DNA of 64,000 nucleotides from a virus, in the IMG/VR virus record IMGVR_UViG_3300009163_000025, positions 24,349 through 88,348 of that record; one strand, written 5' to 3'. Of the stretch, positions 5,332 through 12,472 are shown one piece after another. A program made the translations under genes and the position numbers. Each line of letters starts with the position of its first letter. Positions within the stretch are counted from its first letter, which is position 1. The notes under the pieces are model-generated. The model did no database searches, was not told the origin of the DNA, and saw only the letters and a program-made list of their open reading frames with translations.

Positions 5332-5406
5332 TGGTGGGCTTAAGTGGATTCGAACCACTACCTTATCAATTATGAGTTGACGGCACTACCTTTATGCTAT
5401 AAGCCC
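5332..5406 (-). tRNA. tRNA with anticodon CAT (Met or Ile2)
   Basis: Acceptor GGGCTTA/TAAGCCC, discriminator A, encoded CCA. The anticodon loop CTCATAA sits on a 5-bp stem, and the T-loop is TTCGAAT. The G1-C72 pair rules out initiator identity. The loop is the same in elongator Met and in lysidine-modified Ile2 tRNAs, so these two cannot be separated by eye. Confidence 0.92.
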
Positions 5407-5494: not shown

Positions 5495-6763
5495 TCAACT
5501 ACCATCATTTGCGATTTGAAGCCTCAACTCTTGCAGTTGGTGTAAGGTAATTTTATCGAAAAATCCATAGCCGAAGTGTGTATCAGAATCCATGATTTTA
5601 AAATTCTTTTCGTTGAAAACAAAACTTAGCGATCTGTAGTAATTTCTTGAGTCACCAAAACGCATTGCATGAATGAAATCATGAAACGCATCACTTTCTT
5701 CTAAGATTTTTTGCGCTGGTTCTTTAATTCCATTCCAGAATGGTGTATCGTGAATACTGCCATCACGATACATGTATGCGATAACAGTAGCAACATTATT
5801 AATTTCAGCAGATATTACCGCATTTGCTCCTTCTTTTGATCCACCATATGCAATATACCCAACAATTGCACGATTGATTGTGTCATATAAGTGTAGTGAA
5901 TTTGCAAATAGCGGTTCGAAAAATACAGCACGATTACCATTCTTAAAAATTCTTTTACCAATAATTTGTTTAGCACGATATGAATTGAATTTGTATTCAA
6001 TATTTTGCAACTCTTCTACAGGAACACCAATCTCTTTAGAGAAATTTTGAAGTGCTTCTTCTTTCGTTGTTATTGTATCATTAAAAAGATATCCATAACT
6101 TTTTCTATTGGTTAATGGCACACCAAACATCCATCCATCCGGTGTCGCTCTATGTAATGTATATTTCCATCCTTCTTTATCATCCTCTTGAACATTATGA
6201 ACAAGGCAATGATTGACTGTTTGAACGGGCATCAAACTGTAATCTTCATATGATTTTGGAAACCCACGACAATCTACAACAAAATCGTAATTGTGTTCTT
6301 CACCATCGATAACCATAGTGACTTTATCATCATGCTCCGTCATTGAATCGACTGTACCAACTACTTCTTTAAATTTTTCACGCCAAACTTTTTTGAGTCT
6401 AGGTATTGCAAATTCTCTAAGTTTAAATGTATTAAAATGAATCGCCGCACTACCATTAATTAATGGATTGTGAAAGTCGTGTTCACGCCAATTTTCAAAT
6501 TTTGTTGTTAGTTTTAATGTTGCGTCTAATTCTTCTAAATTATCATACAAATTAAATCGTGTACCATATTCAAGCGCAGTAATGAATGTTGGATTTGTAC
6601 TCTCACCAATTCCTACAATAGGAATAGATGGATCATGAATTGACACAACCTCAAATTCAAGCCCATCAAGCCAAGCAAGAAAAAAAGATAATGACTGAAT
6701 GCCAGCACTACCAGTTCCAATAACTGCAACTTTTTTCTTTATGATTTCTTTTACACTATGCAT
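5495..6763 (-). CDS. Tryptophan-halogenase-like flavoprotein (divergent)
   Basis: 422 residues. The FAD-binding GTGSAG (about residues 16-21) and GIGESTNP (about 51-58) follow the flavin-dependent halogenase pattern GVGEATIP. ATLKLTTKFENW near 81-92 keeps the catalytic lysine context, and FFEPLFANS near 270 keeps the conserved Glu. The diagnostic WxWxIP is replaced by WMFGVP, so halogenation is uncertain and a monooxygenase-like role is possible. AAGGAG precedes the start. It groups with three 2OG-Fe(II) oxygenases and tRNA genes; a canonical paralogue lies at 26394-27869. Confidence 0.8.
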   Translation of the reverse strand: MHSVKEIIKKKVAVIGTGSAGIQSLSFFLAWLDGLEFEVVSIHDPSIPIVGIGESTNPTFITALEYGTRFNLYDNLEELDATLKLTTKFENWREHDFHNPLINGSAAIHFNTFKLREFAIPRLKKVWREKFKEVVGTVDSMTEHDDKVTMVIDGEEHNYDFVVDCRGFPKSYEDYSLMPVQTVNHCLVHNVQEDDKEGWKYTLHRATPDGWMFGVPLTNRKSYGYLFNDTITTKEEALQNFSKEIGVPVEELQNIEYKFNSYRAKQIIGKRIFKNGNRAVFFEPLFANSLHLYDTINRAIVGYIAYGGSKEGANAVISAEINNVATVIAYMYRDGSIHDTPFWNGIKEPAQKILEESDAFHDFIHAMRFGDSRNYYRSLSFVFNEKNFKIMDSDTHFGYGFFDKITLHQLQELRLQIANDGS

Positions 6764-6788
6764 TATTTCTCCTTAACGAATTTTATAA

Positions 6789-7394
6789 TTATTCAACTTT
6801 TTTCATCGTATTAAAACTAATAATCACTCTATTCTTAGTTTGATTTTGTTCATAGTTTGACCCATGCTTTAACCAACTAGGAAAGAATAAAATATCTCCC
6901 GCACCAACTTTAATAGTCCAAAGATCGACAGTATACATTGTTTTGATTTTAGTTGGTGTTAAACATTTTATTTGATTCAATGGCGCATCAAATGTTATAC
7001 CTGTACTATCCTCATCAACATTAATGTATATAGCGGCTGATGCCCAACTATCTGGATGATAATGTTGTTTTAAAACGCTACCTTCATGCTGTATTGCATA
7101 CCATGAATTTGTGATAGCCAATCGATACATTCCAAATTTTTCTGCGTATTCATTAATGCCATTTTCAAGAAATTCATACAGCCCATGACAACTTGGAATA
7201 TTTTTTTCTAATTCTTGAATGAATAATGTTTCTTCAAGATAACTTGTCCTAACGTTTCCAGTTAAAGTGTCGTGTGAAGTGCCGTGTGGTTTTGCCATTA
7301 TATATTCAAATATATCTTTTCGGCGCTGTTCTTCAATGACACCTCTGTGCCATCTAACCAAAGTTGGGAATATATCAAAGTCTATTGTTTCCAT
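6789..7394 (-). CDS. 2OG-Fe(II) oxygenase of the phage Oxy_5 type
   Basis: 201 residues with a double-stranded beta-helix pattern. The metal-site block is QHYHPDSWASAAIYIN near residue 113, the distal His is in FFPSWLKHGSN near 174, and Arg in NRVIISFN near 189 would bind 2-oxoglutarate. PF13759-type proteins are frequent in T4-like marine phages. The substrate is unknown. It is followed after one base by the next oxygenase and downstream by the halogenase-like gene, so the three are likely cotranscribed. Confidence 0.8.
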   Translation of the reverse strand: METIDFDIFPTLVRWHRGVIEEQRRKDIFEYIMAKPHGTSHDTLTGNVRTSYLEETLFIQELEKNIPSCHGLYEFLENGINEYAEKFGMYRLAITNSWYAIQHEGSVLKQHYHPDSWASAAIYINVDEDSTGITFDAPLNQIKCLTPTKIKTMYTVDLWTIKVGAGDILFFPSWLKHGSNYEQNQTKNRVIISFNTMKKVE

Positions 7395-8156: not shown

Positions 8157-8738
8157 TTAAATATCTTTCTTAACGTAATGACAATTAATTGCAATACTCA
8201 ATCTATCTTCATCACTACGATTTTCATTTACATAATGCATTAGCCAACTAGGAAAAATCAAAAGTGTTCCTGCGTTAGGTGCTACAACAAATATACTGCT
8301 GTTGAATTCATTATAACTACTAATAATTTCGTCGGAATAAGAATGCAATGCGGCCGCATTTGGTGTTGTAAATTCTATAGTTCCAAATTCTTTTTTTCCT
8401 ATTGGATAATAAACCGCACTAAAAAAAGAAGTTGGATGTGTATGAGGTTTGCTTGTTACATAACAATTATTTATTGTACACCAAGCCTCTCTAATTTTTA
8501 AAAAATATTCATCACTAAATCCATATCGTTTGTATACTTCATTAAATTTATTTTCAACATGATCGAATAAGTCTTTGATAACACCACTAACATTTTCTTG
8601 TCTTATCCAAGATTGATGATCCGACATACGATTTTTTTCTGTGATAAGATTTTTACGACAAAAATTAACAATTGACTCATTGTCCAATGATAATTGATCC
8701 ACCGCTAAAAATGTTGTAAATATGTTCGTATATTGCAT
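8157..8738 (-). CDS. 2OG-Fe(II) oxygenase of the phage Oxy_5 type
   Basis: 193 residues. SKPHTHPTSFFSAVYYP near residue 103 is the first metal block, LIFPSWLMHYVNEN near 162 gives the distal His, and DRLSIAINCH near 180 gives the 2-oxoglutarate Arg. It is a clear paralogue of the 6789-7394 protein in motif spacing. The promoter at 8841-8869 has consensus boxes and would transcribe tRNA-Pro, this gene and the tRNAs below it. Confidence 0.8.
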   Translation of the reverse strand: MQYTNIFTTFLAVDQLSLDNESIVNFCRKNLITEKNRMSDHQSWIRQENVSGVIKDLFDHVENKFNEVYKRYGFSDEYFLKIREAWCTINNCYVTSKPHTHPTSFFSAVYYPIGKKEFGTIEFTTPNAAALHSYSDEIISSYNEFNSSIFVVAPNAGTLLIFPSWLMHYVNENRSDEDRLSIAINCHYVKKDI

Positions 8739-9967: not shown

Positions 9968-10042
9968 TGGCACCCAATGAAGGAATCAAACCTCCAACTC
10001 CTCGTTCGTAGCAAGGTGTGATATTCATTTCACTAATCGGGT
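9968..10042 (-). tRNA. tRNA-Arg (anticodon ACG)
   Basis: Acceptor ACCCGAT/ATTGGGT, discriminator G, encoded CCA. Anticodon loop CTACGAA on a 5-bp stem. A34 would need TadA-type inosine modification to read CGC and CGA. The T-loop is TTTGATT instead of TTC. Confidence 0.88.
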
Positions 10043-10964: not shown

Positions 10965-11039
10965 TGGTAGGGGCACCGAGAATCGAACTCGGATTAATAG
11001 GTTAAAAGCCTACTACTTTAGCCGTTAAGTTATGCCCCC
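10965..11039 (-). tRNA. tRNA-Lys (anticodon TTT)
   Basis: Acceptor GGGGGCA/TGCCCCT, anticodon stem GTAGG/CCTAT around CTTTTAA, T-loop TTCGATT, encoded CCA. Confidence 0.92.
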
Positions 11040-11043
11040 ATAT

Positions 11044-11118
11044 TGGTGGTTCAGGTTGGATTCGAGCCAACGACCTACTCCGTATGAAGGAGTTGCACTA
11101 CCGCTGTGCTACTGAACC
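11044..11118 (-). tRNA. tRNA with anticodon CAT (second copy; Met or Ile2)
   Basis: Perfect acceptor GGTTCAG/CTGAACC, discriminator A, encoded CCA. Anticodon stem ACTCC/GGAGT around TTCATAC. T-loop CTCGAAT. It differs greatly from the CAT tRNA at 5332-5406, so the two are probably different species, one elongator Met and one Ile2. Confidence 0.9.
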
Positions 11119-11121
11119 GAT

Positions 11122-11207
11122 TGGTGGAGAATCAGGGATTCGAACCCCGTATACCTTAAGGTGACAGATTTACAGTCTGCTGAAGTCGCCAATGCTTCTC
11201 ATTCTCC
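11122..11207 (-). tRNA. tRNA-Tyr (anticodon GTA)
   Basis: An 86-nt class II tRNA with perfect acceptor GGAGAAT/ATTCTCC, anticodon loop CTGTAAA, long variable arm, T-loop TTCGAAT and encoded CCA. Confidence 0.92.
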
Positions 11208-11213
11208 GTTGTT

Positions 11214-11292
11214 TGGCTCCGAGTAAGAGAATCGAACTCTTCTAACCAGTGATTAACAGTCACGCCCATGCACCTTGCTCGGGTTTCTCGGA
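11214..11292 (-). tRNA. tRNA-Asn (anticodon GTT)
   Basis: Acceptor TCCGAGA/ACTCGGA with a mismatch at the inner pair, discriminator G, encoded CCA. Anticodon loop CTGTTAA. The D-arm is long, with an unusual CCCG/TGGG stem, giving 79 nt in total. Confidence 0.85.
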
Positions 11293-11510
11293 ATAAATGC
11301 TTTCTCTCTGCGGCGGTAATTATAGTACTAATGGACTCTGAGGACGTCTGTTTTACCAGACACTCATACCACGTACCCTCCACCCGCTCCCCGACCAGAG
11401 AAAACTCTCGTATTGCCAACGCTACTTTGGTAAGAGTAGTACCACACTTGAGTAACGAACTCACTTCACTTCCTGCGTGTCACAGTAGCCAGACGTTACT
11501 CCAGCGGGTT
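11293..11510 (-). other. Structured stretch without an assigned gene in the tRNA cluster
   Basis: No convincing protein frame. The minus strand has an 8-bp perfect inverted repeat, GAGTAACG (11494-11501) with CGTTACTC (11450-11457), and short hairpins such as GTCTG/CAGAC near 11348-11363. Two tRNA-sized blocks ending in ACCA or TCCA (11428-11503, 11332-11400) have acceptor-like pairing but no proper anticodon or T-arm. It may be a stable RNA or decayed tRNA genes. Confidence 0.4.
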
Positions 11511-11583
11511 TGGTTGCAGGTAGTGGTAACGCTCCACTCTCGCTATGGCTTATGAGACCATGCGGGTCCTTGACCTACCTGCG
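11511..11583 (-). tRNA. Initiator-like tRNA-Met (anticodon CAT), deviant D- and T-arms
   Basis: 73 nt. Acceptor CGCAGGT/ACCTGCA pairs at six positions and leaves C1 opposite A72, the hallmark of bacterial initiator tRNA; the end GCAACCA equals that of E. coli tRNA-fMet. Anticodon stem ATGGT/GCCAT carries CTCATAA. The T-arm is AGTGG/CCACT with loop AGCGTTA, close to the ATCGTTA of the tRNA-Asp in this cluster. The D-arm is shortened to GGTC/GACC with a 3-nt loop. The 5' end lies three bases from the stop of the 11587 gene. Confidence 0.62.
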
Positions 11584-11586
11584 ATA

Positions 11587-12042
11587 TTACTTTATAACTT
11601 GTAGATACTCGTAATTAACTGTATCTTCGTTTTCTCTAAACACTATTGCACCATTACGTGTATGAAACCTTTTGGCTAAATCAGTCTTTGGTGATAGTGT
11701 CACAAATCGTTTAATGTCTGGATTGTTTTCTTTGATAGATTTTACCGCTTCAAATATCAATGTGCGACCTGCTCCTGGTGCGTAACTCCATATCGTATAG
11801 AATACAGCAACATCTGGCGTATCACAAATCTCAAACAACTCAGATTCTTTTGTTGGAATCATGTTTTGATAACTAACACATGTCATTGCTTTCACTTCAT
11901 CTTGTTCATTGCGGAACACAAAGATATCTCTGTTCTTTCCGATTCTATCAACGTGAGGAATGTTTGGGCGAACTGGATCGTCAATCAAAAATTCAAAAAA
12001 CTTATCAGTCAATTCTTTTATAGTACGTATCATATTATTCAT
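11587..12042 (-). CDS. GNAT-like N-acetyltransferase
   Basis: 151 residues. TIWSYAPGAGRTLIFEAVKS near residues 88-107 has the acyl-CoA pyrophosphate loop pattern of GNAT enzymes (the usual Q/R-x-x-G-x-G/A is degenerate here), followed by VTLSPKTDLAKRFHTRNGA, matching the C-terminal GNAT half. I recall similar small acetyltransferases in T4-like phages of aquatic bacteria. The substrate is unknown. A T4-type late promoter, TATAAATA, lies 25 bp before the start. A second ATG three codons in is possible. Confidence 0.68.
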   Translation of the reverse strand: MNNMIRTIKELTDKFFEFLIDDPVRPNIPHVDRIGKNRDIFVFRNEQDEVKAMTCVSYQNMIPTKESELFEICDTPDVAVFYTIWSYAPGAGRTLIFEAVKSIKENNPDIKRFVTLSPKTDLAKRFHTRNGAIVFRENEDTVNYEYLQVIK

Positions 12043-12081: not shown

Positions 12082-12157
12082 TGGCGGTCTTAGGGGGTAA
12101 CGATCCCCACTCTTATGGCGTGACAAGCCATCGTGCGTCCATGAACACTTTAAGACC
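12082..12157 (-). tRNA. tRNA-Asp (anticodon GTC)
   Basis: Perfect acceptor GGTCTTA/TAAGACC, discriminator G, encoded CCA. Anticodon stem ATGGC/GCCAT around TTGTCAC. The T-loop is ATCGTTA (A54). Confidence 0.9.
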
Positions 12158-12333: not shown

Positions 12334-12344
12334 GTATCTAATTC

Positions 12345-12472
12345 TACCATTTGTTTTGCTGACGCACTATTTGCAAAGCCTCAACGGAATTGGTGGCCAC
12401 ACTACCGTTTATTGACAGAGTTACTCAAGGTTGACGTTTACCTCATGGCTTACGTCAGCAAAACAAATGGTA
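12345..12472 (-). ncRNA. Long-stem structured RNA between tRNA-Glu and tRNA-Cys
   Basis: Positions 12345-12364 and 12453-12472 are a perfect 20-bp inverted repeat enclosing 88 nt. The interior adds AAGCC/GGCTT just inside the stem and AACGG/CCGTT around a GTGGCCAC palindrome. The upper arm includes the CCA end of tRNA-Glu (five shared bases). There is no protein frame. T4 itself carries stable RNAs of unknown function in its tRNA cluster, so a stable RNA or a processing signal is plausible; an inserted palindrome is the alternative. Confidence 0.6.

Follow-up and report, generated by a model that had tools for sequence, protein, structure and literature searches.

The base pairs G2:C71 and C3:G70, together with a mismatch at 1:72, have been named as determinants of formylation (PMC7949028). 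The residues G18, G19, U54, U55, C56 and A58 have been described as conserved in all domains of life, and pseudouridine-55 has been called universal (PMC7912444, PMC4810234). Phage-encoded initiator tRNAs as such are already known. Phage T5 has an annotated tRNA-fMet within its tRNA set (AY543070, 32428-32505), with U1:U72, U31:G39 and U73, a canonical D-loop (GG), the T-loop TTCGATT and normal linkers. Canonical types are also detectable by BLAST in phage records, 411 of which match the E. coli initiator, some of them being host-derived fragments. The idea, from an earlier sequence-only reading of the present locus, that a phage-encoded initiator would be unusual is not borne out by these records, and its further suggestion that such a tRNA lets the phage steer initiation is likewise unsupported.

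Compact tRNA cores have been described elsewhere. The delta-N tRNA-Pyl of Methanomethylophilus alvus has a 4-nt D-loop and has lost U8, and the anticodon stem of tRNA-Pyl is lengthened and, on its 3' side, interrupted by an unpaired base; when described, the delta-N architecture was said to be unseen in other tRNAs (PMC11467909, PMC7609411). The mitochondrial type I tRNA-Ser(UCN) has a one-nucleotide linker between the acceptor and the D-stem, a small D-loop and a lengthened anticodon stem (PMC7609411). Escape from host anticodon nucleases has been proposed for phage tRNAs with changes in the anticodon loop; VapC targets initiator tRNA, and phages are said to avoid fMet in general (van den Berg 2023, PMC10264068).

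The tRNA analysed here lies on the minus strand at 11511-11583 of the window, which is the whole stretch of 64,000 nucleotides under study. The window comes from a viral record of 88.3 kb with T4-like genes, that of a freshwater phage whose DNA polymerase is approximately 52% identical to cyanomyovirus polymerases. We consider it probable, judging from sequence comparison, that this tRNA-Met(CAU) is a functional, formylatable phage initiator that completes a set of 25 tRNAs. Read on the RNA strand from a predicted mature 5' end at 11583, its 73 nt comprise the acceptor 5' strand CGCAGGT (11577-11583); a one-nucleotide linker A to the D-stem (11576), with no U8 and no position 9; a D-arm of 4 bp with a 3-nt loop carrying A18 and G19 (GGTC-AAG-GACC, 11565-11575); the triplet CGC (11562-11564); the anticodon arm ATGGT-CTCATAA-GCCAT with U31:G39, drawn from sequence and covariation (11545-11561); a bulged A (11544); the triplet GCG within the variable region (11541-11543); AG; the T-arm AGTGG-AGCGTTA-CCACT with A54, G55, C56, G57 and U58 (11522-11538); the acceptor 3' strand ACCTGCA; and ACCA, with the CCA encoded at 11513-11511. 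In the acceptor, C1 is unpaired with A72, followed by G2:C71, C3:G70 and A4:U69.

The C1 opposite A72, the GCAACCA end and the CTCATAA loop on a 5-bp stem, as well as the GGTC/GACC D-arm with its 3-nt loop and the T-loop AGCGTTA, had all been listed in the sequence-only reading, and all are present in the reverse complement. The same reading described the arms as stunted and non-canonical. The features are there, but they are not damage; they belong to a coherent alternative core made up of an extended anticodon helix, A18:G55 and the A54/U58 swaps. The cloverleaf has a minimum free energy of -26.9 kcal/mol (z about -3), with 1 of 200 shuffles as good. ARAGORN did not call the tRNA in the window, and the Rfam model RF00005 gave no match at 11511-11583, either at its gathering cut-off or at E <= 10; the homologous copies in genomes G002-G006 are likewise absent from the RF00005 listings. 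This class of phage tRNAs thus escapes standard tRNA annotation. The model R1, which was built with the window sequence included, scores it at 93.7 bits. The tmRNA and permuted tmRNA calls that ARAGORN made at 11000-11650 under a lowered threshold were rejected as noise.

Relatives of this tRNA, here termed class 1, were collected by two routes. The neighbouring gene (11587-12042, minus strand) encodes a 151-aa protein with a weak Pfam match to the MCD C-terminal domain, a probable GNAT-fold acetyltransferase, and this protein was used as bait to fetch homologous loci (L010-L089) without reference to the RNA. Among these, L010, L012-L014, L015-L017 and L039 carry a class-1 tRNA, in four distinct sequences whose stems have changed and yet pair. 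Further members came from a pattern scan of viral contigs, giving dozens of relatives in all, although some of the conserved core (AGGT..ACC, GTCTCATAAGC) was dictated by the search pattern itself.

A feature overlooked in the sequence-only reading is the pairing of the three nucleotides before the anticodon stem (CGC) with a triplet inside the variable region (GCG). The corresponding pairings in class 1 are CGA/TCG, CGG/CTG, CGG/CCG, CAA/TTG, CGC/GCG and CAC/GTG, and all three pairs are formed in 47 of 49 distinct sequences, with 0 of 10,000 shuffles as good. As the three extra pairs covary, the anticodon helix totals 8 bp, with a single bulged base (A in 40/52) between the 5 bp of the stem and the 3 bp of its extension. 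The class-1 D-loop is 3-5 nt long across 52 sequences. The linker is A in 52/52; the search pattern accounts for part of this, yet the protein-bait loci show it as well. This core resembles delta-N tRNA-Pyl in its short D-loop, the lack of U8 and the 3'-side bulge in a lengthened anticodon stem. It is unlike tRNA-Pyl in its 8-bp helix and initiator marks, where tRNA-Pyl has a 6-bp broken stem, a CUA anticodon and a paired 1:72; the window tRNA carries CAU, C1:A72 and A73 in place of CUA, G1:C72 and G73. The likeness is a convergence in form, and it is one of architecture only, with no claim of sequence kinship. The mitochondrial type I tRNA-Ser(UCN) has a similar linker, D-loop and stem, but keeps G18 G19 and T-psi-C and is a serine tRNA, not an initiator.

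Of the canonical elbow pairs G18:U55 and G19:C56, the window tRNA keeps G19 and C56 and has A18 and G55. The T-loop AGCGTTA thus reflects a tertiary swap, in which A18/G55 replaces G18/U55. Pseudouridine-55 and m5U54 cannot be made on a T-loop with G55 and A54. Among phage initiators, the D-loop dinucleotide and T-loop position 55 were AG with G55 in 57 and GG with U55 in 53, with approximately seven others that were mostly mis-parsed. For all ARAGORN-called tRNAs of the loci, AG without GG was found in 90/104 tRNAs with G55 versus 2/2165 with U55 (Fisher p ~1e-143, to be read as a strong association and not as an exact probability, since the sequences are related). Given that 18:55 covaries and that G19 and C56 are kept, contact between the short D-loop of class 1 and the T-loop is probably retained, by way of A18:G55 and G19:C56. 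The 19:56 pair is also swapped in the ARAGORN-called tRNAs, where 36 of 38 tRNAs with U56 carry A19. The window tRNA-Arg(ACG) (9968-10042, minus strand) has this A19/U56 swap, with GA in the D-loop and TTT in the T-loop, as do its homologues. A54/U58 in place of U54/A58 occurs in approximately 100 distinct tRNAs, and class-1 initiators mostly carry both this and A18/G55. A54/U58 is also seen in the window tRNA-Asp(GUC) (12082-12157, minus strand; missed by Rfam), which keeps G18 G19. The sequence-only reading had likened its T-arm to that of the class-1 tRNA, which holds for the T-loops, one base apart (AGCGTTA and ATCGTTA), and fails for the T-stems, which differ.

ARAGORN called 23 tRNAs in the window. 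Together with the class-1 tRNA and a tRNA-Asn(GUU) (11214-11292, minus strand), which was missed by both ARAGORN and Rfam and was identified by BLAST to annotated tRNA-Asn of Acinetobacter phages, the set comprises 25 tRNAs and covers all 20 amino acids. Superwobble and the reading of codons through lysidine and inosine are established decoding rules, and given these, with the modifications made by the host, the 25 tRNAs would read every sense codon. Two further CAU tRNAs are present, a canonical elongator tRNA-Met (11044-11118, minus strand; called by ARAGORN and supported by comparison) and a tRNA-Ile2-like tRNA with a canonical cloverleaf (5332-5406, minus strand; assigned by resemblance), and the class-1 tRNA therefore fills the initiator slot.

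In the proposed sequence of events, the host MetRS would charge the class-1 tRNA, the host formyltransferase would formylate it and IF2 would bring it to the P site. A search of class-1 phage genomes for a formyltransferase gene found none; a peptide deformylase was found in 2 of 10. With the other 24 phage tRNAs, it would form a decoding set for 20 amino acids plus initiation, and such a complete set would keep phage translation running after the loss or cleavage of host tRNAs. The least certain step is that host tRNA nucleases or elbow-reading enzymes would plausibly act poorly on the class-1 tRNA, owing to its rebuilt elbow and U31:G39. U31:G39 adjoins the known cut site of enteric VapC, and escape of the class-1 tRNA from VapC or other nucleases is speculation. 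The phage tRNAs of van den Berg 2023 are alike in having changes at positions that host enzymes may read; class 1, by contrast, does encode fMet, and its changes lie in the elbow and stem and not in the anticodon loop.

The distribution of the swap bears on this last step. The class-1 pattern gave no matches in 84,980 prokaryote species genomes, while it does recover known members, and BLAST with a class-1 sequence gave no match in 50,697 INPHARED phage records. Viral contigs were present in number among the matches listed for a pattern of A18/G55 elongator tRNAs, which had no matches in samples from three bacterial phyla (398, 395 and 393 genomes, 1,186 in total); a canonical tRNA pattern, as a control, gave 6-10 matches per genome in three control genomes. 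Bacterial matches to a longer-gap A18:G55 pattern were rejected, since the one read out was no tRNA and ARAGORN called none at all three loci. In some phage clusters, the swap extends to nearly every tRNA (L451, 15/15; L431, 17/18; L502, 25/27; L510, 19/21) or to about three quarters (L110 and L100), though these fractions do not estimate frequency, as swap-rich loci were partly picked by the A18/G55 pattern. Class-1 genomes have few swapped tRNAs apart from the initiator. A phage with mostly elbow-swapped tRNAs also carries a tmRNA gene (L303:13871-14307; RF00023, 100 bits), whose T-arm is canonical, GGTTCGAATCC, and the notion of a whole-set swap reaching tmRNA was rejected.

We tentatively suggest that phages repeatedly evolved the A18:G55 elbow, in some across nearly the whole set, and the Pyl-like initiator core, to hide their tRNAs from elbow-reading host enzymes or defence nucleases; this is possible, if somewhat doubtful. 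If true, phages would have a privileged translation system that extends even to initiation. A serious competitor for the least certain step above, and for that step only, is that the core is no adaptation against host enzymes and arose by mitochondria-like neutral drift, repaired by compensatory changes while selection was relaxed, the tRNA simply boosting initiation. We regard this as a substantial possibility that stops short of probable. The A18:G55, A19:U56 and A54/U58 swaps do recur scattered over isotypes and phages, and fast evolution is expected of phages. However, the swap pattern was seen in 0 of the 1,186 bacterial genomes, and the clusters with nearly all tRNAs swapped speak against drift alone, which is not expected to change an entire set in step. 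In the openly licensed literature, we found no report of A18/G55 phage tRNAs or non-canonical phage initiators, nor of this core on any initiator. By that search, two things are new: an initiator built on a compact core like that of tRNA-Pyl, and an A18:G55 elbow swap that recurs. Class 1 makes it directly testable why phages carry whole tRNA sets. It offers a naturally covarying elbow alternative on the tRNA with the most partners (MetRS, formyltransferase, IF2 and the P site), and natural material on which elbow and anticodon-stem features initiation needs.

An altered elbow would also suit a tRNA mimic with no role in translation, either a regulatory RNA or a decoy or sponge that occupies tRNA nucleases, toxins or modification enzymes of the host. 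Conserved structured RNAs lie adjacent in the same cluster, and the T5 cluster holds annotated "tRNA-like stable RNAs". A decoy, however, has no need of the combination that is kept here, namely CTCATAA, the formylation determinants and the 1:72 mismatch, and without the class-1 tRNA a set that is complete in all else would have no initiator. This explanation appears unlikely.

Among 52 class-1 sequences, 1:72 is mismatched in 45 (C:A, U:U, A:A or G:A), G:U in two and A:U in five, and is never G:C, so that it is unpaired or weak in 52/52. G2:C71 and C3:G70 occur in 48/48 sequences. The purine11:pyrimidine24 pair is present, as G11:C24 in the window and in 48/52 and as A:U in 3/52, with U:A in 1/52, and is partly fixed by the search pattern. 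The window tRNA has the CAU anticodon within the CTCATAA loop. In class 1, 30:40 is invariantly G:C, 29:41 may be either G:C or A:U, and U:G occupies 31:39 in the window tRNA and in 51/52. The strict 3GC signature (29:41, 30:40, 31:39) is thus incomplete, with G29:C41 and G30:C40 followed by U31:G39 in the window, and class 1 is therefore classed as a phage variant that would work like an initiator and not as a canonical tRNA-fMet. U31:G39, A29:U41 and U73 in place of A73 (18/52) are its departures from cellular initiators; the U1:U72, U31:G39 and U73 of T5 recur in many members. With the E. coli tRNA-fMet of the metY/metZWV type, the window tRNA shares C1:A72, G2:C71, C3:G70, purine11:pyrimidine24 (A11:U24 in E. 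coli), CTCATAA, G29:C41, G30:C40 and A73-CCA. It differs in U31:G39 (not G31:C39), the 1-nt linker, the 3-nt D-loop, the lack of U8:A14, the 8-bp bulged anticodon helix, A18/G55 and A54/U58.

The initiator assignment of the sequence-only reading is upheld by the 1:72 and invariant acceptor pairs, the separate elongator Met and Ile2-like tRNAs and the compensatory stems. The alternative of an elongator, for Met or Ile2, whose first pair is weak is very improbable. The CAU anticodon and the A:U at 1:72 in 5/52 relatives would fit, but the cluster already provides canonical elongator Met and Ile2-like tRNAs, 1:72 is never G:C, the G2:C71/C3:G70 pairs are invariant and the CTCATAA/G30:C40 arm is of initiator type. 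Each of ten class-1 records searched holds one class-1 copy, and a second initiator-like match was absent from these ten except for weaker ones in G013. Elsewhere, six phage loci (L060-L063, L066 and L030) each hold two different initiator-like tRNAs.

Comparison with related phages, put forward as a check in the sequence-only reading, showed the stem pairs to be kept. In 48 distinct class-1 sequences, 99.5% of the cells were paired under the drawn structure, and 11 of 23 pairs showed compensatory changes on both sides, a level reached in 0 of 500 shuffles. Pairing fell to 32-50% in slid-partner controls, and RNAalifold on the alignment returned the same structure. Compensatory changes occurred in the acceptor (three of six pairs, 2:71 and 3:70 being invariant), anticodon, extension and T helices. 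The D-stem was invariant in this set because the search pattern had fixed most of it; a later scan, with the T-arm and 3' acceptor end alone, left it free to vary and recovered compensations as GATC/GATC (L356 and L395) and GTTC/GAAC (L339). By this comparison, class 1 is a conserved class and a maintained folded molecule, not a decayed gene. A degenerate pseudogene or by-product of cluster decay, although it would account for the missing U8, G18, U54/U55 and A58 and for the failure of standard tRNA finders, is contradicted by the covariation and very improbable in view of this pairing, the compensations in all helices, the invariant initiator determinants and the sole strong initiator match in large genomes.

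Two other RNAs were noted in the cluster. Between tRNA-Glu and tRNA-Cys lies a structured RNA of 125 nt (12340-12470, minus strand), closed by a stem of 20 bp, which begins at the CCA of tRNA-Glu. It is kept in at least 10 other phage loci, with 15 of 36 predicted pairs compensatory, had no match in Rfam, and is likely an undescribed phage ncRNA. A 216-nt stretch between the initiator and tRNA-Asn (11295-11510, minus strand) likewise had no Rfam match and is a probable second RNA of undescribed kind. It was rejected as a split or precursor part of the initiator, as it lies elsewhere in the cluster of L015-L017. It is 83-84% identical in L009 and L010 and in L015-L017. The tRNA region also encodes a tryptophan-halogenase-like protein and two 2OG-Fe(II) oxygenase-like proteins (5495-7394 and 8157-8738, minus strand).
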